Shown here piece after piece: positions 16,501-64,000 of a stretch of DNA of 64,000 bases. The notes under the pieces were generated by a model, which was not told the DNA's origin, ran no database searches, and saw only the letters and a program-made list of their open reading frames with translations. Both the position numbers and the translations under genes were made by a program. Source of the stretch: a virus; the IMG/VR virus record IMGVR_UViG_3300022752_000020, positions 62,001 to 126,000 of that record; one strand, 5' to 3'. Every line of letters starts with the position of its first letter. Within the stretch, counting starts at the first letter, position 1.

Positions 16501-17175
16501 TTAGTCAAACCCGTGAATTACAGTCACCGTTTTACCAGGAGGTGGTGGACTAAAAAATTGAATATATTTTCCAGTAGGGTAGGATTTTGAGCTTGGGGCA
16601 TTAACCATGATATAATTCGTATATGGTATTTGAAAAACATTTTCAACATATACAAATATGTTAGCAGCACTCTTTGGTACAAGTGCATTTACATCTCTTA
16701 TAGGACCAAAATTTAATTCTGTCCCATCAACAAAGCTTATAGTATTAAGATTTTCAATTTCACTATCAGCATCGCCTTCATAAGATGGATAAGTTTCTTC
16801 ATCTGCTAGAAATATTCCGCTGCTTGCTGGATCTGCACCAAATCTTTGTATGGTTACTAGAGCAGGTTGTTTAGCTTTTAACTGAATCCAGATACCATTA
16901 GTTAATACTTCAAGAGCATCTTCATCAAGATTATATCTTATTAAACCGCTATTTTTATACCATGTTGTGGGTGCAGGTCTTTCGTCAGTATATCCTGTGG
17001 GTAAAAATAAAGCTTTTAACTGAGGCAATCCTGTATACCAAGTAGCACCTGGAGCAGTTCTATCATAACTATATGGAATATCCATTATGACCTGTCCATC
17101 ATACCTACTGCTATAGGTCAATTCTAAACTTTTAGCACTATTATTATTAATTTTATTTTGTTTATAAAATTTCAT
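16501..17175 (-). CDS. Virion structural protein (224 aa)
   Basis: The ATG at 17175 overlaps the upstream gene's end by one base, so translation is coupled. The N-terminal part (about 30-110) carries WYTGLPQLKALFLPTGY and a G-I-W-I-Q-L segment. The C-terminal 60 residues contain N-I-F-V-Y-V-E-N-V-F-Q-I-P and then F-F-S-P-P-P-P-G-K-T-V-T-V-I-H-G-F-D. I know this end module as a recurring piece of marine T4-like phage structural proteins. Function beyond the virion is not apparent. Confidence 0.65.
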   Translation of the reverse strand: MKFYKQNKINNNSAKSLELTYSSRYDGQVIMDIPYSYDRTAPGATWYTGLPQLKALFLPTGYTDERPAPTTWYKNSGLIRYNLDEDALEVLTNGIWIQLKAKQPALVTIQRFGADPASSGIFLADEETYPSYEGDADSEIENLNTISFVDGTELNFGPIRDVNALVPKSAANIFVYVENVFQIPYTNYIMVNAPSSKSYPTGKYIQFFSPPPPGKTVTVIHGFD

Positions 17176-17564
17176 TACTGTACCTGCACAACGCTTAAAA
17201 AAGCATTGATAGCACTGGGGCGATCAGCACTGGCCCAAATAGCATCCAGTTCGCCTAAAATAATTTTTTCGCTATCAAAAGCAAATGTATCACCTACATT
17301 AATAGCAAGTTCCTTAATACATACATTAGTACTACTAGGATTCCTCCCTTTCTCTACAAGATATATGGTAAGCAAGGCTGGTTGAGTATCTCTATTACAG
17401 AAAAACATACTAGTAATAGCATATGCTTTACCTGGAAAGTTTGGAGCGGTGAAAGGAGGAGTGTTAACTTGAAAAAGAGCAGTGCCACCTGCAACAGTGC
17501 CTGGTGTTGTCACCGTTGCTTCTGTTACACTTAACACTGGTACTAGAGCTGTTACTAAAGCCAT
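17175..17564 (-). CDS. Small virion structural protein (129 aa)
   Basis: The ATG at 17564 follows AAAGGAATTTTT. The protein is beta-rich with a Thr/Val-rich first 30 residues and a core FPGKAYAITSMFFCNRDT, then LLTIYLVEKG. This resembles small head- or tail-decorating proteins of marine T4-like phages. It is followed directly by the 224-aa gene with a 1-nt overlap. The role is inferred from its neighbours. Confidence 0.6.
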   Translation of the reverse strand: MALVTALVPVLSVTEATVTTPGTVAGGTALFQVNTPPFTAPNFPGKAYAITSMFFCNRDTQPALLTIYLVEKGRNPSSTNVCIKELAINVGDTFAFDSEKIILGELDAIWASADRPSAINAFLSVVQVQ

Positions 17565-27272: not shown

Positions 27273-30200
27273 TTATGCCCTATTATAAAGATTGCCGTTA
27301 TTGGCTTTTACTGCACTTACCTGTGCTCTACCAGTCTCTTCAACCTTATTGATTAGTTTATTCATGCTACTATTTAATGATTCTAAAGTTTTAACTACAT
27401 CATCAAGAGTTTTAGTTGCTTGCTTTTCTGTACCAGTTGTACTAGTTTTCTTATCATCATTCTTTTTAGAATCTTCTTTGTCCTTATCCTCTTTCTTGGC
27501 GTCATTTTGTCTTTGTAATCTTCTTGTTTCAGCATCGCTTTGATTTTCTATAGTTTTAGCTTGACTTCTTGGCTTGGGTATAGGTAGTCCATCAGGACCC
27601 ATAGTAAAGTCGCCCATACTTAATGGTGCTACATCTGCTTGTCCCTCCTGTTCTGCTGCCTTGGGATTAGATTCACCAAAATCTACAAAATTGTTGCTCA
27701 TGGCCAAAGGTTCAGCTGCATCAAAACCTGCTACACTGGCATCACCAGGATCTGTTCCACCTATTAGATCGTTACCTGCACCATATTCATCTTCCTCAAA
27801 GCTACGATCTAGTTCTCCACCAATAGCTTCACCACCTTCACCATATTCATCTTCCTCAAATTCTTTCAACCCTGATACTTGATCTTTAAACTCTTTTAAT
27901 GCAAGTCCTATATAATCTTCTTCTGGCTCTTTAGGTAGCACTATGTCCTCACCACCTTCACCATATTCATCTTCCTCAAACTCGCCACGCTCTGGCATGT
28001 CAAACATTTCATTGAGCTCTTGCATCATAGAATCTTGTGCATCAGATATAACTTGTGATGGCATGTCAAACATTTCATTGAGCTCTTGCATCATAGAATC
28101 TTGTGCATCAGATATAACTTGTGATGGCATGTCAAACATTTCATTGAGCTCTTGCATCATAGAATCTTGTGCATCAGATATAACTTGTGATGGCATGTCA
28201 AACATTTCATTGAGCTCTTTCATCATAGAATCTTGTGCGTCAGATATAACTTGTGATGGCATGTCAAACATTTCATTGAGCTCTTGCATCATAGAATCTT
28301 GTGCATCAGATATAACTTGTGATGGCATGTCAAACATTTCATTAGTTTCTTGCATCATAGAATCTTGTGCATCAGATATAACTTGTGATGGCATGTCAAA
28401 CATTTCATTGAGCTCTTTCATCATAGAATCTTGTGCATCAGATATAACTTGTGATGGCATGTCAAACATTTCATTAGTTTCTTGCATCATAGAATCTTGT
28501 GCATCAGATATAACTTGTGATGGCATGTCAAACATTTCATTGAGCTCTTTCATCATAGAATCTTGTGCGTCAGATATAACTTGTGATGGCATGTCAAACA
28601 TTTCATTAATTTCTTGCATAAATGCTGATTGTGCAGCCACAGCAGCATCAGTCATTCCACCTACACTTTCTATTTGTGCCTCATTAGCTTTTTCTGTTTG
28701 TTCTAAAATTTTATTATCAGATTCTTTTTTAGCTATCCCAAGTGCTTCATCTAATTCTTTTTGTTGTTCTAGATTAGATTTAAGATTATTCTGAGCTCTT
28801 ATTACACCGTTTTCCGCCAACTTCAACTGTGCCTGCTCTTCTTCTGTCAGTGCTCTTTCATTAGCTAGAGCTTTTAGTCCGTCTACTTCACCTTGACGCT
28901 CTAATAGTCTTTCTTCAATTTCTGTTCTTCTCTCTGCCAATTTGTTCATTTCTTCAGTCTTGTCTCTTATACCTTGAACTGGCAGTGCTTCCTTCATATC
29001 CTCTTTGATTTTTTCACTATTAGACTTAACTTCTACCTTAGCATCAGTTAATGGCGCCACTATTAGCTTGCCCATATCTTTACTGATATTTTCAGCTTCC
29101 CTATAAGCCTGTTTCATTTCTTGATTGGCTTTTTTAAATGCTTCACTGCCTTCAATTTCTTCTTTGCTCTTGCCTTCTCTCTGCCCTTTAGCCATCATAG
29201 TGTCCATAGCTGCGCTTGCTTGATCTCCTCGTTCAGTGGCAGCTTCTTTGGCCTTGGCTAAATCGTTTATTTTTGCCTGTCTCTCCATTTGGCGTTGATA
29301 GAGTTCTTCTCGTTTCTTCTCCTGCTCTGCTTCTTCGGCATTACGACGAACTATATTATCCCCGCCACCAGTTACATTCTGTGTTTCAGTGATCATAGTC
29401 TCGGCATTTTTTAGTTTCATTCCTGTGGATTCTTCTATCTTAGGTACTGGCATTGTACCCTGTAGATCCTTAACCATATCCATGGCTTTTTGTGTATCAA
29501 ACTTTCCGTTGAATAACTCTCTTAACTTTTTCTCTTCATTCTCTAGTTTCTTAATTACTGCTTGACCTTCTGGACTATTTGGATCAACATCTTTACCATC
29601 TATAGTGACCTTCGTATTACTCTTTTTATTTTCTATAGCATTATCTACAGCACGTACACTAGCTTGGGTAGGAATTTGATTATTGAGATCTCTTTGTTTT
29701 TCCTCCCACATTTTCCTAGCTTCTGCTTCTGAAATTTTTGGAGTTTCAGATTTCTTATCTTCAGCTTTTTTGTCTTCAGCTTTTTTGTCTTCAGCTTTTT
29801 TGTCTTCAGCTTTCTTTTCAGTTGCAACTTGTACTTGTCCAAAGTTTTTAGGCCAATTAATGATTTCAACTTTGCTAGTGGTTGTTGCAATATCTTTAGC
29901 AATTTTTTGTAGATCAATTCCTGGAAGCTTTGTAGCATCACTAGTTCTAGATCCTTGTGCAGCTACCACTCTGTTCAACACATCACCTATAGCTTCTGTC
30001 CTTACATTTTGTATTAGATTTTTCTGTTGCTCAGGTGTCAGTACCATTTCACCTTTGTGTAATAAGGCCATTACATCTTTTGTTTCTATGGCTCTACCAG
30101 TTTCACCTAAAGTACCGCCAGCACGACCAGTTTCTTCTTTGGTAACCTTTAGAGTACCTACATTCATTATACCCACTTTTGCATCTTGTAGTGCTCCTTG

Positions 30201-31586
30201 TATAGCGGGTATAATGCCCTTATCATAGGCAGTAGTGACTGCTTTGGCAGTTCCTTGTGCTAGGCCTGTACCTATATCAGTAAACATTCCTACTGTACCT
30301 TCCAGTCGATCTTGTCTAGTAGCTGGACTGAATTTGCCCTTTTCTGCATCCTTCTCCTGCTGTATTCTAGCCTGATTATACCTTCTAGCAATGTCTTCAG
30401 GGTTATCCCCTGCCTTGGTCATGAGCATTGATTCACTTAATCTTCTACCTGCTTTGTCAATGTCACCGCCTTTTCTATTCAGTTCTCCTAAAGTTCTAGT
30501 AGATGCAGCAGCATTTAAATCATCTATAACAATGCCTAAAGTTCTTATACTTTGAGTAATACCTGAACGTGCCTTTTGTTCTTCTTGTATGGCTGCTACT
30601 TGTTTTTTCATAGCAGCTTCAACATCTCCGCTACCTTTGGCAACATTTTGCATACCATGATAGGCAGTGTCATTAGCCTTCATCAAATTTCTACTGGCTT
30701 CACCTGCTTCGCCGCCTGCATAGATTGATGTTTGTAAAAATGCTTTATCCTTTTGCAACTTCATAGCTTCAATACTAGCACGCTCTGTATAAACTTTTGC
30801 TAGTTCTGTATTACCTCGACTGAGCTCTGTAGCACTTTTAGCAGCATTCATACCTGCCTGACCATACATGCCCATCTGTGTCTGAGCACTTTTACTCATG
30901 GCTGTACCAGTGGCAAAATACTCCTTATATAGGTCTCCCATGCCCTTAGCAGCCATTTGAGCATAGTTATTTTTAAATTGATCTCTTGCTCTTTTCTCTG
31001 CTTCTTCACCTTGTTCCAGACCAATTAGTCTAAACTTGGCCTCTAACTTCATATCAGCTTGAGCTTTTTTGAGGTTGTCTTCTTGTTCCTTACGACTTAC
31101 ACCTGTTAATTGTGTTAACTGATCTAATTCTAATGCAAATTGAGCAGCACTGGCCGCTGCCTTAGCCTGACCTTCTTTGGTATTTTCAAATGTACTTTTT
31201 TGAAATCCTACAGTAAGAGCTAAAACTTCATTAAGTTCACCAGTAGTAAAACCCATTTGACGTAGGTTTTCTGTGAGACCACTACTATGATATACCTTGG
31301 CTAGATCTGAGAATACTTGAGTACCTTTGCTAACACTACCGCCCAAGGTGCCCATGATATCATTATTACTTTGTAGTAATTCAGCAAACTTTTCAATAGG
31401 CATGCGAGCATTGGTAGCTGCCATCTGCATCTTGATCATATCATTGCCAAAGGTATTACCCGTGACACTGAGCTGCTCAAAGGTTTGATTCATCCTCTCA
31501 ATAGGTGTTTTAGCCTTTTCAACAGTTTGACCAAACTTTCTAACACTATCTACAGCACTACCTAACATACCCTTTTCATCTGCCAT
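27273..31586 (-). CDS. Tape measure-like tail protein (1,437 aa)
   Basis: The first 360 residues are helical with tape-measure features (N-N-D-I-M-G-T-L-G-G, L-Q-L-T-G-V-S-R-K-E type segments). An A-L-L-H-K-G-E-M-V-L-T-P-E-Q-Q motif follows near residues 505-520, common in tail-length proteins. Then come K-K-A-E-D pentapeptide repeats (about 590-610), long charged coiled coils, ten copies of a 22-residue unit (about 977-1197), and F-E-E-D-E-Y-G-E-G-G-E acidic boxes. The last 100 residues are polar and Lys/Glu-rich. T4 gp29 has 590 aa, so this is far longer. It is divergent from gp26. The tape measure role is a good inference, not proven. Confidence 0.7.
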   Translation of the reverse strand: MADEKGMLGSAVDSVRKFGQTVEKAKTPIERMNQTFEQLSVTGNTFGNDMIKMQMAATNARMPIEKFAELLQSNNDIMGTLGGSVSKGTQVFSDLAKVYHSSGLTENLRQMGFTTGELNEVLALTVGFQKSTFENTKEGQAKAAASAAQFALELDQLTQLTGVSRKEQEDNLKKAQADMKLEAKFRLIGLEQGEEAEKRARDQFKNNYAQMAAKGMGDLYKEYFATGTAMSKSAQTQMGMYGQAGMNAAKSATELSRGNTELAKVYTERASIEAMKLQKDKAFLQTSIYAGGEAGEASRNLMKANDTAYHGMQNVAKGSGDVEAAMKKQVAAIQEEQKARSGITQSIRTLGIVIDDLNAAASTRTLGELNRKGGDIDKAGRRLSESMLMTKAGDNPEDIARRYNQARIQQEKDAEKGKFSPATRQDRLEGTVGMFTDIGTGLAQGTAKAVTTAYDKGIIPAIQGALQDAKVGIMNVGTLKVTKEETGRAGGTLGETGRAIETKDVMALLHKGEMVLTPEQQKNLIQNVRTEAIGDVLNRVVAAQGSRTSDATKLPGIDLQKIAKDIATTTSKVEIINWPKNFGQVQVATEKKAEDKKAEDKKAEDKKAEDKKSETPKISEAEARKMWEEKQRDLNNQIPTQASVRAVDNAIENKKSNTKVTIDGKDVDPNSPEGQAVIKKLENEEKKLRELFNGKFDTQKAMDMVKDLQGTMPVPKIEESTGMKLKNAETMITETQNVTGGGDNIVRRNAEEAEQEKKREELYQRQMERQAKINDLAKAKEAATERGDQASAAMDTMMAKGQREGKSKEEIEGSEAFKKANQEMKQAYREAENISKDMGKLIVAPLTDAKVEVKSNSEKIKEDMKEALPVQGIRDKTEEMNKLAERRTEIEERLLERQGEVDGLKALANERALTEEEQAQLKLAENGVIRAQNNLKSNLEQQKELDEALGIAKKESDNKILEQTEKANEAQIESVGGMTDAAVAAQSAFMQEINEMFDMPSQVISDAQDSMMKELNEMFDMPSQVISDAQDSMMQETNEMFDMPSQVISDAQDSMMKELNEMFDMPSQVISDAQDSMMQETNEMFDMPSQVISDAQDSMMQELNEMFDMPSQVISDAQDSMMKELNEMFDMPSQVISDAQDSMMQELNEMFDMPSQVISDAQDSMMQELNEMFDMPSQVISDAQDSMMQELNEMFDMPERGEFEEDEYGEGGEDIVLPKEPEEDYIGLALKEFKDQVSGLKEFEEDEYGEGGEAIGGELDRSFEEDEYGAGNDLIGGTDPGDASVAGFDAAEPLAMSNNFVDFGESNPKAAEQEGQADVAPLSMGDFTMGPDGLPIPKPRSQAKTIENQSDAETRRLQRQNDAKKEDKDKEDSKKNDDKKTSTTGTEKQATKTLDDVVKTLESLNSSMNKLINKVEETGRAQVSAVKANNGNLYNRA
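27996..28655 (-). repeat. 66-nt minisatellite, ten near-identical copies, in the tape measure gene
   Basis: Unit starts fall at 27996, 28062, 28128, 28194, 28260, 28326, 28392, 28458, 28524 and 28590, a perfect 66-nt period. Each encodes 22 residues of the form E-L-N-E-M-F-D-M-P-S-Q-V-I-S-D-A-Q-D-S-M-M-Q. Copies differ by a few bases only: Q/K before E, L/T after E, and gca/gcg in one Asp-Ala codon. Such low divergence indicates recent or ongoing expansion. Confidence 0.95.
29759..29818 (-). repeat. 15-nt tandem repeat coding KKAED, four copies
   Basis: The plus-strand unit cttcagcttttttgt recurs from 29759, with the fourth copy slightly changed. On the minus strand it encodes K-K-A-E-D, a charged linker inside the tape measure-like protein. 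Confidence 0.85.
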
Positions 31587-31636: not shown

Positions 31637-31645
31637 GGAGCTGTG

Positions 31646-32482
31646 ATGACTGGAAATCCCTTACAAAAATACTTTCGTCAACCTAAAATCTTCATTGATT
31701 TACCCAGCAAAGGACGCTATTATGACCCTAATAGTTTAGATAAAAAGAATGATCAATTACCTATTTTTGGTATGACAGGTATGGATGAGATCATAATGAA
31801 AACTCCAGATGCTTTGTTTAGCGGTGAAGCCACAGTAAAAGTTATTGAAAGTTGCTGCCCCGCTATAAAAGATGCTTGGAAAATGCCCAGTATTGATGTA
31901 GATTGTCTATTAGTCAGTATAAGAATTGCAACATTTGGATCAAATATGAATGTGACTCATAGATGCCCAGCTTGTCAAAGTTATAACGATTATGAAATTG
32001 ATCTAAGCAAAGTATTAAGTTATCTAGGCTCACAAGAATATGACAGTGTTATAGACTGTGGTGATCTAAAAATTGTTATACGTCCTTTACGCTACGAAGA
32101 AATTACTCGATTTAACATAGAAAACTATAAGCTACAAAGAATGTTAGGTCAACTCAGTAAGATGGAAACACAGGGTGATGATGACGGTAGTATACGTAGT
32201 CAAAACGAAGTTTATCAAAAAATCAGTGACATGCAACTAAACTTGTTTCAAATCAGTGTGGAAAAAATTATTACACCAGAAGGTGAAGTCACCGACAAAA
32301 ACTTTATTGCCGAATGGATTCAAAATAGTGACAAAGAATATTTTAAATTTATTAAGAAAAAACTAGAAAGTAATAAAGCACAATGGGACGTGCCCAGTCA
32401 AGATGTTGTATGTCCTGAATGTGAACATGCCAGTAAGGTAGTTGTTACTATGGATCAAACAAGTTTTTTCGAAAAAGGCTAA
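31646..32482 (+). CDS. 26: Baseplate hub subunit gp26 (278 aa)
   Basis: The protein matches the T4 gp26 type: N-terminal Q-P-K-I-F-I-D-L-P-S-K-G-R-Y-Y, then F-G-M-T-G-M-D-E-I, and S-C-C-P-A-I-K. It has two CxxC pairs (C-P-A-C near residue 112, C-P-E-C near 263) that could bind zinc. T4 gp26 has 208 aa. I chose ATG 31646 because TTGGAG lies 5 nt before it; an in-frame GTG at 31643 would be too close. It overlaps a downstream -1 frame (see next entry). gp26 acts in baseplate hub assembly. Confidence 0.85.
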   Translation: MTGNPLQKYFRQPKIFIDLPSKGRYYDPNSLDKKNDQLPIFGMTGMDEIIMKTPDALFSGEATVKVIESCCPAIKDAWKMPSIDVDCLLVSIRIATFGSNMNVTHRCPACQSYNDYEIDLSKVLSYLGSQEYDSVIDCGDLKIVIRPLRYEEITRFNIENYKLQRMLGQLSKMETQGDDDGSIRSQNEVYQKISDMQLNLFQISVEKIITPEGEVTDKNFIAEWIQNSDKEYFKFIKKKLESNKAQWDVPSQDVVCPECEHASKVVVTMDQTSFFEKG

Positions 32483-32703
32483 TAACAATACCGGATTCTG
32501 ACTTAGAAGATTTCCTAAATAGCTACGATCTACACTGTAAACAAATTAAAGATGATATCTTTACCATAAGCTGGTATATGCGTGGTGGTGTCACAGCCAA
32601 CGACTTATTTCATATCTATAGCTATGAAGATCGTAATATTATGAATGGTATAATCAAAAATAATATAGAACTTACTAAGAAAAGCGGTTTACCTTTGATG
32701 TGA
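31646..32703 (+). CDS. Probable -1 frameshift product: gp26 joined to a 77-residue tail-assembly-chaperone-like extension
   Basis: The zero frame ends at 32482. A -1 slip on T-TTT-TTC (32464-32470) continues for 77 codons to TGA at 32701, giving about 352 aa. The extension (I-P-D-S-D-L-E-D-F-L-N-S-Y-D-L-H and D-I-F-T-I-S-W-Y-M-R-G-G) looks like real protein. Yet it has no ATG, GTG or TTG before the Met about 36 codons in. Many dsDNA tailed phages make tail chaperones this way, with the extended form binding the tape measure, whose gene here is the divergent neighbour. A rare ATA start at 32488 behind AAAAAGG is the alternative. Confidence 0.65.
32464..32470 (+). promoter_or_regulatory. Slippery heptamer T-TTT-TTC
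   Basis: The gp26 frame reads AGT TTT TTC GAA, so the heptamer fits the X-XXY-YYZ rule for -1 frameshifting with the correct phase. It lies 10 nt before the zero-frame stop. I saw no obvious strong downstream pseudoknot. Confidence 0.65.
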
Positions 32704-33627
32704 TTCAAATGCAGGCAAGCTAAGATTACTAACAGTGCCAGGACGATCAGTATACCGATAAGCATCACCTACTTTAGGCAATTTATTTTTTATCTTATCC
32801 AAGGCTCCACCAATAGCACCAATTGGTCCTTTATCAATTACTTCCTTACCAAATTCTATTACCTTTTCTAATGCGTATCCTGCTGATGTAAATAAACCCA
32901 TAATTACTGGAAAAGTTTCAGCAAACCATTTTTTACCGGCATCAGTACGAAACCATGCCATGGCAGCAACTTCACCCACACGGGCAACATGTCCCAACCA
33001 ACGTCTACTAACTTCAGCAGCTCTAGGAAATCCAGTAGCCTGTATCATTTTTGCTATAGTTTTACTACCAACTTTGCCTATAGCCCCAACGACTTTGGGC
33101 ATAATAAGTCCCATAATAAATTCACCATTAAGTTTAGCCAATTGTTCTTCATAATTTGGGTCTTTAGGATCTAATGCCCATCTACTCATCAAATAGTCAT
33201 AAGTTCCATAAAGTAAACTTGCTGTTGTAGCAAATGATACACCCAAGTTAGCCAGTTTTTCTTGAGCTGCTGTAGCTGCCTGCATATTGTTCACTATAGC
33301 TGCTTGATGATTTTTTTCTCCTTGCCTTATTATAGCTTTTTTCATACTATCAATACGCCACTTACCAACAGTTGAATTTTTACTAAAGCCAATTTTATTC
33401 CACCAAGTGCCAGCATATTGTTGTGCTGCTTGTCTTTGAGCAGCTACTTGTCCAGGTATTTTAGGTATAGGAACTCGTGAAACATTTGCAGGTAGTGTAC
33501 GTGATCCACGCCATAATCCACCTAAAGCTCTAGCACCCGCACTAATCAGTTTACCAGTTCCAATAGCAGCTAACGGTATTATGAATTCATCTAATTCTTC
33601 TTCTGTCAACAATTCATTAAGTTTCAT
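32689..33627 (-). CDS. Unknown 312-aa protein, possible internal virion protein
   Basis: I do not recognise the family. The start MKLNELLTEEELDEF resembles the short acidic/hydrophobic capsid-targeting peptides of T4 internal proteins, which gp21 removes. The body has hydrophobic helical segments (about residues 15-35, 125-145, 170-195, 240-260) and is basic overall, with several Arg/Lys-rich stretches. The ATG at 33627 follows CTAAATAAATATAAG, a late-promoter-like box. Its 3' end overlaps the end of the -1 frame extension of gp26 on the other strand by 15 nt. A head-internal or ejected protein is a hypothesis only. Confidence 0.65.
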   Translation of the reverse strand: MKLNELLTEEELDEFIIPLAAIGTGKLISAGARALGGLWRGSRTLPANVSRVPIPKIPGQVAAQRQAAQQYAGTWWNKIGFSKNSTVGKWRIDSMKKAIIRQGEKNHQAAIVNNMQAATAAQEKLANLGVSFATTASLLYGTYDYLMSRWALDPKDPNYEEQLAKLNGEFIMGLIMPKVVGAIGKVGSKTIAKMIQATGFPRAAEVSRRWLGHVARVGEVAAMAWFRTDAGKKWFAETFPVIMGLFTSAGYALEKVIEFGKEVIDKGPIGAIGGALDKIKNKLPKVGDAYRYTDRPGTVSNLSLPAFESHQR

Positions 33628-40725: not shown

Positions 40726-43245
40726 ATGAGCATTTTAAAAAATGCTGTAAAGGCTACTATAGCTACAGCAGCAGTAGGTGCAGTGGCTAACCAACTTAAA
40801 AATGTAAATCCTGTAAGTGATTTAAAAAATGCTGTATCTACGCTATCAGGTGGTTTAGATAAACTAAAAGCAGGACTAAGTCTTGATGCTAGTCAATTAG
40901 TAAACAAAATAGCAGGGCAAGTACCAACAGCATTTGATGTAGGTGAAGTTGGCGGGTTCTTCAAAGTCCCAACTCGTAAAATTAGTATTGATCTCAAAAA
41001 CGAAAATATTGTAGAAACAAATATTAAAAAACTACCTTTGTCTAATGTATTACGAAACTATGCCAGTGTTAACTATGTTTGGACTCTAAGTGTACTCAGT
41101 CCTTTTGCCTGTAATTTTCCAGATGAAACTTATAAAAAAGGTGAGTTAGGTGATATTATTCTTCGCAGTGGTGGTGGAGATCCAGAAAATAGAGTAAGTT
41201 TAAAAAACTATGGTTATACAGGTGAAGCTAGAATGGATCATAATCCTGATGGTAAATTTGATTTTTATATAGACAACCTTAAAATTCAAAGTGTTATAGG
41301 TTTAGATCAAAATACCAAAAATACAAATGCTAGTACTCTACAATTCAAAGTATTTGAACCCTACAGTATAGGATTATTTTTTCAAAGTTTACAAATGGCA
41401 GCTGCTAATAATGGTTATGAAAACTGGATCATTATGCCTGTGCTACTTACTTTAGAGTTTAAAGGGCATTATGGTCCAGATCAACAAATGGTGGACAGTG
41501 CCGTAACTAAAAGACATTTTCCAATCAAAATTACCAATATAGATTTAAGAGTTACAGATAAAGGTAGTGAATATGAATGTCAAGCTGTGGCATGGAATGA
41601 CGAAGCATATAGCGACACCATAAGTAGAACAAGAGTTGATCTACAATTGCAAGGAAAAACTGTACAGGAAATGTTGCAAAGTGGTCCCTACAGTGTACAA
41701 AGTATTGTTAATGATCAATTATTAGAACAAGCTATAAAAAATAAAGTTCCTATAGCAGATCGTATTGTTATATTATTTCCTACAGATACCAGTAGTAAAA
41801 GGAATAGTGATACCACAGACGATACTAGTAGTCCAAAAAGTGCCACTGCCAATCCAAATGTTAAAAAACAAAATGTATTCAAAAAACTAGGATTAGAAAT
41901 AGCCAACGATGGATACAACTATGTGCAGAAAGACAATGTAAACAATGTTGGAACAGCTTCAATGGGATTTACTGATCGTAAAAAAGCAGAGGGTGTATTT
42001 GGTAAGGACGGTGCAATTTGGGACGAAAAGAAGCAAGTATTTACAAGAGGTAAAATCGAATTAAGTACTACCACTGGCAAAGCAGAATTTAAACAAGGTA
42101 GTATGATACCTAACATAATCATTGAAATAATAACCAGCAGTAATTATGGAATTGAAGCATTGCAACCTAGTAATATTGTAAAAGGTAAAGTTAATTGGTT
42201 CAAAATAGACAGCCAAAGCTATATAATAGATACTGATGCCAACATACCAAAAACAGGACGTATGCCCATGGTCACAGTATTTAGAATTATACCTTTTCAG
42301 GTTGATAAGTCTAGATTTCAGAGTGCTGGAGCTGCTCCAGAACATGCCCCAGAAGTGGTCAAAACCAGCCTAAAACAATATGATTATTATTACACAGGAG
42401 AAAATACAGAAATTTTAGATTTTCAAGTTAAATTTGCCACTACATTTTATAAAGCTACCACTGCTGATAGTGGTATTAATAACGAAGATGCTAGACAACG
42501 TGATAAAAATGCACCAGTAGCCACACCCACTAGTCCAGTGATCACTAATGGTAAGGTTACCAATTTTAGACGTAAAGAAGATGGTAGTATATACGATGCA
42601 ACTGATGAATATAAACAAGGCAAACATGGCAATACAAATATAGGTGACGCTGCTACTAAGGTATTAGTACAAGCAGATCAGTTAAAACCTAAGCGTAATG
42701 GGGGAGGAGTGACTGTACAGGATACAGGTACATTGATAGCTAAACAATTCAATGATGCTATAAACAGTGCTGGTGATATGATCACTGTTAATATGAAAAT
42801 TCTAGGAGATCCATTCTTTTTAGGTGATAGTGGATTTGGAAATTATACTGCTCAAGGTACTGAAAATCCTGCCATCACCGCCGACGGTACTATAAATCAA
42901 CAACGTGGTGAAGTTTTTATAACAGTAAATTTTAAAAATCCTACAGATATCAATGGTAATTTATACAAATTTCCTGGGCCTAATACAGTTAATACAATAA
43001 GTGGTTTATATAGAGTGAATACATTAGAAAGTTATTTTGACAGAGGCATGTTTACACAGAATTTAGATTTATGTAGAATGCCAAATCTAGACAGTGCCCC
43101 AACTGATGCTGCATTAGGTGAATTAGGTATAAACACTGCCCTACAAAGCCAAACAGTGTCACCAGCAGCACCTGATATATTGACTGGCCCGCCACCTCCT
43201 TCTGACGCTGATCTAACAGTTTATCCAGATGACGGAGTTATCTAA
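40726..43245 (+). CDS. Baseplate hub structural protein (839 aa), possible gp27 counterpart
   Basis: It lies between gp53 and gp5. Residues about 200-260 carry F-E-P-Y-S-I-G-L-F-F-Q-S-L-Q-M-A-A, then L-L-T-L-E-F-K-G-H-Y-G. I associate these segments with large hub proteins of marine T4-like phages. The first 70 residues are Ala/Leu/Val-rich and helical. The C-terminal part (about 730-780) is beta-rich and ends in a Pro-rich tail. No gp27 gene is seen elsewhere in the window, so this protein may supply that hub function. The T4 equivalence is inference. Confidence 0.6.
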   Translation: MSILKNAVKATIATAAVGAVANQLKNVNPVSDLKNAVSTLSGGLDKLKAGLSLDASQLVNKIAGQVPTAFDVGEVGGFFKVPTRKISIDLKNENIVETNIKKLPLSNVLRNYASVNYVWTLSVLSPFACNFPDETYKKGELGDIILRSGGGDPENRVSLKNYGYTGEARMDHNPDGKFDFYIDNLKIQSVIGLDQNTKNTNASTLQFKVFEPYSIGLFFQSLQMAAANNGYENWIIMPVLLTLEFKGHYGPDQQMVDSAVTKRHFPIKITNIDLRVTDKGSEYECQAVAWNDEAYSDTISRTRVDLQLQGKTVQEMLQSGPYSVQSIVNDQLLEQAIKNKVPIADRIVILFPTDTSSKRNSDTTDDTSSPKSATANPNVKKQNVFKKLGLEIANDGYNYVQKDNVNNVGTASMGFTDRKKAEGVFGKDGAIWDEKKQVFTRGKIELSTTTGKAEFKQGSMIPNIIIEIITSSNYGIEALQPSNIVKGKVNWFKIDSQSYIIDTDANIPKTGRMPMVTVFRIIPFQVDKSRFQSAGAAPEHAPEVVKTSLKQYDYYYTGENTEILDFQVKFATTFYKATTADSGINNEDARQRDKNAPVATPTSPVITNGKVTNFRRKEDGSIYDATDEYKQGKHGNTNIGDAATKVLVQADQLKPKRNGGGVTVQDTGTLIAKQFNDAINSAGDMITVNMKILGDPFFLGDSGFGNYTAQGTENPAITADGTINQQRGEVFITVNFKNPTDINGNLYKFPGPNTVNTISGLYRVNTLESYFDRGMFTQNLDLCRMPNLDSAPTDAALGELGINTALQSQTVSPAAPDILTGPPPPSDADLTVYPDDGVI

Positions 43246-44888
43246 TGCCTGAAATTAATAGATCAACTCTTGAAGGTGAAGGTACTAGTAAAGAAGATGG
43301 ACTGATATTGGCCATTGTGGTCAGTCATTTAGATCCTGATTATATGGGTAGCCTGCAAGTGGAAAAATTACGACAAGTTGGAAATGATCGTAAAAGAACA
43401 GGACAACTGGCCACTGTAAAATATGTAAGTCCATTCATAGGTGTTACCAGTGCAGAATTTAATAGTAAAGTAAATGATTACAATGGAACTCAAAAAAGTT
43501 ATGGATTTTGGGCCATACCACCAGATGTAGGTACCACAGTGGTCTGTTTCTTTGTAGATGGTGATCCAGCTAGGGGATATTATATAGGTAGCATACAGGA
43601 TAAAGACATGAATTTTATGATACCTGGCTATGCTGCTACTAGTTTTAATCAAGATGGGGAAGAAGAACGTGTACCTGTAGCTGAATACAATAAAAAAGCT
43701 GACTTACCAATTAAAAAAGATACTACCAGAATTGAAAAACCACAGCATCCATTTACCACAGTACTAAAAGATCAAGGTTTACTACGTGATGATGTAAGAG
43801 GCATAACCACTAGTAGTGCTCGTAGAGAATGGCCCAGTGCTGTATTAGGTATTAGTACACCAGGACCTATAGACAAAGATGGCCCAAAAGGAAAAGTAGG
43901 TAAACACGAAGACGAAGTTAGTAAAATGCCTATAAGTAGGTTAGGCGGTAGTAGTTTTGTTATGGATGATGGAGATGACAAATTTCTACGTAGAAAAAAC
44001 GCCAGTGAAGGTCCACCTGATTATGCTGCTGTAGAGGATGATGAATTAGATGGTGATAAAAAAATATTACACAATGAACTCATACGCATACGTACACGCA
44101 CTGGACATCAAATATTATTACACAATAGTGAAGACCTTATCTATATAGGAAATGCACGTGGTACAGCATGGATAGAATTAAGCAGTGATGGAAAGATGGA
44201 TATATTCACTGAAGACAGTGTAAACGTACATGCTAAAAACGACTTTAATCTATATGCTGACCGAGATATAAACATGGAAGCAGGACGTAACTTTAACATT
44301 AAAGTAAAAGAAGAAATGCATACACATGTTTTAAAAGATAGTATCTTAATTGTAGAAGAAAATCAAAAAATACACATCAAAAAAGATGTTGATATAACCT
44401 ATGATATGACATTTCAACATAAGGTCAAACAAGATGTAAACATTCAATTTGACACTAACTACCTACACAAAGTTGGCAGTAACTATGACTTCAATGCAGG
44501 TGGACATATCTATATGACTAGTGGTGGCAGTAATGAAACACAAGCTGGAGGAAATATTATAGAAACAGCACCACAGATTCATATGAACGGGCCAAGGGCG
44601 GCCACCGCTGCCATAGCCAGTCAAGCAGAATTACCTCAAATATTAAAAACTCATAGTGTCCCAGATCAAGAAGGTAGTGAATTATTTCAAACTATTATGC
44701 GTAGAGTACCTATTAAGGAACCTTGGTGTCACCATGAAAATTTGGATCCTGTAGAATTCAAGCCAGATAAAACAGATCGTGATATAGATGGTAGATATGA
44801 AGGTAATAGCGAAAGTATACTAAAAGTTCCTGATTTTTTCAAACAGTACACTACAAAGTATGATACTTTTAATAAGGTCAAAACATAA
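43245..44888 (+). CDS. 5: Baseplate central spike gp5 without a visible lysozyme domain (547 aa)
   Basis: The N-terminal 130 residues form the OB-fold type seen in gp5/VgrG (L-A-I-V-V-S-H-L-D, then G-F-W-A-I-P-P-D-V-G-T-T-V-V). Residues about 290-445 give a triple beta-helix needle: D-G-K-M-D-I-F-T-E-D-S-V-N-V, D-I-N-M-E-A-G-R-N-F-N-I and H-I-Y-M-T-S-G-G. In T4 a lysozyme domain lies between. Here residues about 140-285 are polar linker without an E-x8-D/C-x5-T lysozyme pattern. The start overlaps the previous stop (TAATG). Confidence 0.85.
   Translation: MPEINRSTLEGEGTSKEDGLILAIVVSHLDPDYMGSLQVEKLRQVGNDRKRTGQLATVKYVSPFIGVTSAEFNSKVNDYNGTQKSYGFWAIPPDVGTTVVCFFVDGDPARGYYIGSIQDKDMNFMIPGYAATSFNQDGEEERVPVAEYNKKADLPIKKDTTRIEKPQHPFTTVLKDQGLLRDDVRGITTSSARREWPSAVLGISTPGPIDKDGPKGKVGKHEDEVSKMPISRLGGSSFVMDDGDDKFLRRKNASEGPPDYAAVEDDELDGDKKILHNELIRIRTRTGHQILLHNSEDLIYIGNARGTAWIELSSDGKMDIFTEDSVNVHAKNDFNLYADRDINMEAGRNFNIKVKEEMHTHVLKDSILIVEENQKIHIKKDVDITYDMTFQHKVKQDVNIQFDTNYLHKVGSNYDFNAGGHIYMTSGGSNETQAGGNIIETAPQIHMNGPRAATAAIASQAELPQILKTHSVPDQEGSELFQTIMRRVPIKEPWCHHENLDPVEFKPDKTDRDIDGRYEGNSESILKVPDFFKQYTTKYDTFNKVKT

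Positions 44889-48800: not shown

Positions 48801-48801
<1 letters not shown>
45352..48801 (+). CDS. 6: Baseplate wedge subunit gp6 (1,149 aa)
   Basis: The N-terminal 120 residues carry F-T-S-Y-D-F-E-N-L-R, L-I-D-M-I-A-F-L-G-Q-S and R-V-D-L-N-A-R-E-N-F-L. R-R-E-S-I-L-R-L-A follows and is a strong gp6/baseplate J-type signature. The middle has R-M-I-T-A-E-D-Y-N and the C-terminal part L-G-S-K-L-E-Q-I-K. T4 gp6 has 660 aa, so about 490 residues are extra, mostly in the region 480-950. The start ATG is at 45352 behind AAGGA. Confidence 0.92.

Positions 48802-64000
<15,199 letters not shown>

Follow-up and report, generated by a model that had tools for sequence, protein, structure and literature searches.

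The window analysed here is a stretch of 64,000 nucleotides that forms part of a 159,920-base uncultivated virus record. It contains a gene resembling gene 26 of T4-like phages, whose end overlaps an open extension in the −1 frame, and a long divergent open reading frame (ORF) lies beside this gene on the other strand. The features of the locus are as follows.

27273-31586, minus strand: divergent ORF of 1437 amino acids, candidate tape measure protein (from position and BLASTP).
31643/31646-32482, plus strand: gene 26, 0-frame short form (TAC-N), 278 amino acids (PF12322, phrog_150).
32464-32470, plus strand: slippery heptamer T_TTT_TTC in 0-frame phase (AGT TTT TTC), seen in the sequence and invariant in relatives.
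32470-32703, plus strand: −1 frame extension of 77 codons with a TGA stop (32701-32703), putative C-terminal domain of the long form (open in all relatives; dN/dS; structure model).
32477-32481 with 32520-32524, plus strand: weak possible 5-bp stem in the register of a sister-clade stem, not supported as functional in the window.
32480-32482, plus strand: 0-frame stop TAA, seen in the sequence; 9 nt separate the heptamer from it.

Translation of gene 26 from the ATG at 31646 gives the product of 278 amino acids, and the earliest possible start is the GTG at 31643. The product matched PF12322 with an E value of 2.1e-19, which exceeds the curated cut-off, and phrog_150 (PHROG 150, baseplate hub) with an E value of 6.1e-21. 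A fold search of BFVD with its AlphaFold2 model (pLDDT 87) returned T4-like baseplate hub (assembly) proteins, and the fold search of the PDB returned nothing at E <= 0.001. The 3′ end of the gene reads AGT TTT TTC GAA AAA GGC TAA, and the phase of the heptamer at 32464-32470 is that required for tandem −1 slippage. Of the 29 main window ORFs checked, gene 26 alone has T_TTT_TTC at 30 nt or less from its stop; one other ORF has TTTTTTA at such a distance, and an ordinary gene beginning with ATG occupies the frame downstream of it. Heptamers of this kind stand near the ends of 17175-17564 (minus strand; T_TTT_TTA, 25 nt ahead of the stop) and 43245-44888 (plus strand; T_TTT_TTC, 52 nt ahead of the stop). 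Both probably occur by chance, because the next gene, which is in the −1 frame in each case, has its own overlapping ATG.

The −1 frame begins at the CGA codon at 32470-32472, and its first ATG, GTG or TTG codon is the ATG at 32578, 36 codons in. A long form that continues into this frame would comprise 352 amino acids. Counted from the heptamer, the extension measures 79 codons, with zero insertions or deletions across 58 aligned IMG/VR loci. Comparison of 107 pairs gave a median dN/dS of 0.17, which indicates purifying selection on the extension as a protein. It contains a conserved WYMRGG motif and was predicted to form a helical domain (model pLDDT 90); a BFVD fold search with the extension found nothing at E <= 0.001, and it appears to be a divergent helical domain that belongs to no Pfam or PHROG family. 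The extension overlaps tail to tail, by 15 bases (32689-32703), with a convergent gene at 32689-33627 on the minus strand. The preliminary description of this DNA had placed T_TTT_TTC in the correct phase near the gp26 stop, had counted 77 open codons in the −1 frame and had taken that frame to be genuine protein. Its coordinates and counts were right, and the constant length and the low dN/dS confirm the coding character of the frame.

To follow the locus among relatives, we performed two IMG/VR scans, which yielded 28 loci with the extension as query and 80 loci with gp26 as query. All of the 56 distinct loci from the gp26 scan contained the in-phase heptamer, followed within a few codons by a stop in the 0-frame. 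The 73 distinct junctions of the window's gp26 type (68 from IMG/VR and 5 from named jumbo phages) were uniform in that T_TTT_TTC was invariant, the 0-frame stop followed shortly after, and the −1 frame was open (73/73). In relatives, the distance between the heptamer's first base and this stop was 10, 16, 19 or 25 nt. Five loci of the two scans provided no complete junction: L028 and L029 hold part of the extension only, where their matches begin, and L043, L054 and L102 show the heptamer, with the sequence ending inside the extension. Five further loci in MAG contigs also contained the in-phase heptamer. In a scan with gp26 of Synechococcus phage S-RIM8 as query, TTTTTTC started ten bases ahead of the 0-frame stop at 75/75 distinct loci of the cyanophage type. 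The slippery site and the −1 frame are thus conserved jointly in both groups, as expected from the preliminary description.

The constraint on the heptamer extends to positions that are free at the protein level. The base ahead of TTT TTC was always T, while the codon that it completes varied among Asn, Ser, Thr, His and Arg. The Phe-Phe pair was always encoded as TTT TTC, a combination predicted at 15% from codon usage elsewhere in the same genes. With amino acids fixed and each identity cluster counted once, the chance that all gp26 clusters would keep NNT TTT TTC was approximately 10^-21.6 when clustering at 60% identity (21 clusters) and 10^-4.4 when clustering, very strictly, at 50% identity (four clusters).

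The jumbo phages Atu_ph07, Phosso, 121Q, RaK2 and PA5oct have the same heptamer after gp26, and their −1 frame, about 73-79 codons long, is annotated as separate hypothetical proteins or not at all. S-RIM8 and Agrobacterium phage OLIVR5 also have the heptamer and a −1 extension, part of which is annotated, from an internal start, as 'baseplate hub assembly catalyst'. Such separate internal-start genes are found at 3232-3369 of L122 (S-RIM8), 3220-3360 of L123 (OLIVR5) and 6115-6237 of L110 (Atu_ph07), and the first part of the extension is missing from the protein sets of these three phages because of this choice of start. The single exception found was Pseudomonas phage Cygsa01 (L124, 2072-2982), in which gp26 is without the heptamer and a gp51-type small gene follows downstream at a TAATG overlap. 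The Cygsa01 lineage may have swapped frameshifting for a coupled start.

T_TTT_TTC is not known to be among the strongest −1 sites, and A_AAA_AAG is reported to be far more prone to shifting in E. coli (PMC5009743). RNA stimulators downstream of the site are common in chaperone pairs of the G/GT type, but they are not obligatory. In a sister clade (alignment A4, 27 loci, L070-L108), a covarying 10-bp stem starts 6 nt after the heptamer. It is of the type GCCTAATTGG/CTAATTAGGC, extends over nt 13 to 61 as counted from the heptamer's first base, and includes four pairs that have changed on both sides. In an 11-pair version of this stem, 95.6% of cells pair, compared with 13-53% when the stem is slid. 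The covariation score was higher than that of all 500 shuffles. Because both arms are coding and the sequences share ancestry, the comparison with shuffles exaggerates the support, but sliding the stem gives a clear control. The covariation points to the stem as a probable frameshift stimulator, and it is possibly a new detail of such loci. For the window's own clade, the junction of the window folded no better than shuffled sequence (z-score of −0.50), the register of the sister-clade stem showed no covariation, the consensus fold was empty, and a brute-force helix scan detected just long-range candidates, in the conserved SWYMRGG codons. The consensus fold of the cyanophage junction was also empty.

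The manner in which the −1 frame is entered can be narrowed. The extension might instead be a separate small protein, made from a non-standard start (ATA, at 32482 or 32488) or through reinitiation by ribosomes that have terminated at the gp26 stop, as would be compatible with the purine stretch AAAAAGG upstream, with an ATG at or near the stop in Atu_ph07, Phosso, 121Q, L063 and L027, and with the TAATG overlap used by Cygsa01. The version with ATA at 32488 behind AAAAAGG, the main alternative of the preliminary description, does not hold up, since relatives conserve neither the codon nor the purine stretch. The proposed start codons and purines in general vary freely, whereas the heptamer, for which such a start has no use, stays invariant even at loci with an ATG. 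Between the stop that precedes it and the 20th codon after the heptamer, the −1 frame has no ATG, GTG or TTG at 45 of the 73 loci, and it has no ATG at 61 of them. We therefore consider separate initiation improbable. At L056, L057, L060, L103 and L108, a −1 frame stop directly abuts the heptamer, and the frame can therefore be entered only in the 10-16 nt ahead of the 0-frame stop.

Joining of the frames by transcriptional slippage on the T6 run, rather than by the ribosome, would also result in a −1 product, and the T run is present. T6 is, however, a short run for polymerase slippage; the run is never T7, is always closed by C and keeps one codon phase throughout, and the position of the sister-clade stem at 6 nt suits a ribosomal stimulator, so that this origin of the long form seems very unlikely. 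A homopolymer indel in this contig, whether an assembly or sequencing error or a step in the decay of a pseudogene, would likewise split a gene, but the same arrangement is present in 73 distinct sequences, finished phage genomes included, and the extension is under purifying selection. Assembly error is refuted by the many independent genomes with this arrangement, and we regard error or decay as having a negligible probability.

Programmed −1 frameshifting by the ribosome, to yield gp26 and an extended form as proposed in the preliminary description, is supported by the joint conservation, the invariant synonymous positions, the dN/dS value, and the start-less frame at those 45 loci. On this comparative evidence, we place at approximately 0.92 the probability that gene 26 encodes a T4-like tail assembly chaperone produced in two forms by −1 slippage on T_TTT_TTC. 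We infer the slippage, its rate and the chaperone role as follows. Most ribosomes would stop at 32480 and release the short form of 278 amino acids. Some would slip by −1 on T_TTT_TTC, with the Phe tRNAs in the P and A sites re-pairing with TTT TTT, and would continue in the −1 frame to produce the 352-amino acid long form with its predicted helical C-terminal domain. By analogy with lambda gpG/gpGT, both forms may bind the tape measure protein and guide assembly of the tail tube. Both gp26 and gp51 are already labelled as tape measure protein assembly chaperones in the record of Acinetobacter phage Stupor.

The divergent neighbour of 1437 amino acids is a likely candidate for the tape measure protein, on the basis of its position and of a non-significant BLASTP similarity (E value of 0.087) to RaK2 ORF088, which is annotated as similar to tape measure protein. 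No similarity was found between this ORF and the neighbour in Phosso. Its C-terminal third contains about ten near-identical repeats of 22 residues (SQVISDAQDSMMQELNEMFDMP). The window also contains an ORF of 4915 amino acids at 48801-63548 on the plus strand.

To relate the two forms to T4 proteins, we compared sequence profiles. T4 gp51 matched PF12322 over residues 1-201 (E value of 3.9e-52) and is therefore a gp26-like protein with an extra tail. The cyanophage counterpart is homologous to T4 gp51: the cyanophage fusion matched gp51 along the length of the latter (E value of 1.5e-18), and the cyanophage −1 extension matched the gp51 tail (hhalign E value of 2.5e-8). The window-type fusion matched the cyanophage fusion with an E value of 1e-16 and with the FFR junction in register. 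The window's extension alone showed weak similarity to the cyanophage extension (P value of 0.0043) and a weak match to T4 gp51 (P value of 0.0026), but it occupies the same position as the gp51 tail. When the window fusion was compared directly with T4 gp51 alone, the profile match was also weak, and the cyanophage sequences were needed as a bridge. A search of the rest of the phage record, which may be incomplete, for a homologue of gp51 gave no match to T4 gp51 and had no positive control. Along this chain of profiles, what these phages would make from a single frameshifted gene appears to be encoded by two genes in T4. The earlier suggestion that the extension replaces T4 gp51 thus holds in substance and requires a change in wording, in that gp51 consists of a complete gp26-like domain followed by a C-terminal tail and so corresponds to the long form encoded as a separate gene.

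We see about even odds that the T_TTT_TTC frameshift in gp26 is ancestral in the T4-like supergroup (cyanophages, the window's clade, RaK2/121Q/PA5oct, and Atu_ph07-type jumbo phages), with T4 genes 26 and 51 as a derived replacement and with RNA stimulators gained clade by clade. If this were so, the clades would constitute a natural experiment on tuning of the ratio of short to long form. For a gene that usually bears the annotation 'baseplate hub', our analysis provides a likely function and a coding scheme with two products. In the named phages examined, the extension of this gene was overlooked or was annotated as a hypothetical protein or as hub assembly catalyst. The slippery site is near-invariant over very divergent T4-like phages, about 150 relatives, and the relation of T4 gp26 to gp51, with a shared domain and an extra tail on one of them, becomes directly testable.

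The idea of a frameshift in gp26 is already published for T4-like phages, and the window locus agrees with it. Vladimirov 2022, as described in PMC12846349, reported −1 signals of the poly-T type in the TAC-N genes of T4-like phages and, as described in PMC10885494, some T4-like phages with one short and one longer fused gene and no frameshifting. The window shares with the chaperones so described a gp26-type TAC-N gene, a poly-T −1 slippery signal, and a short and a long form, and it differs from these accounts in having an extension that lacks a Pfam or PHROG family. The TAC locus of Vandenendeviridae (phage Adele) similarly has a −1 shift that is conserved close to the end of TAC-N (PMC12846349), although the motif is GTTTTT and the phage group is another one. 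Cyanophage (Kyanoviridae) gp26 with its 'baseplate hub assembly catalyst', as in S-RIM8, has T_TTT_TTC, an adjoining 0-frame stop and a −1 extension, which is shorter than that of the window at about 58-67 codons past the stop. In T4, both gp26 and gp51 belong to PF12322, and gp51 combines a gp26-like part with a tail matching the cyanophage −1 extension, but the two are encoded by separate, divergent genes with no frameshift. The heptamer of lambda gpG/gpGT differs from T_TTT_TTC. The lambda system resembles the window locus in having a low-level −1 shift near the end of a gene that yields a short and a long chaperone (PMC5009743), whereas the lambda genes share the strand of the tape measure gene and the window's candidate for that gene is divergent.
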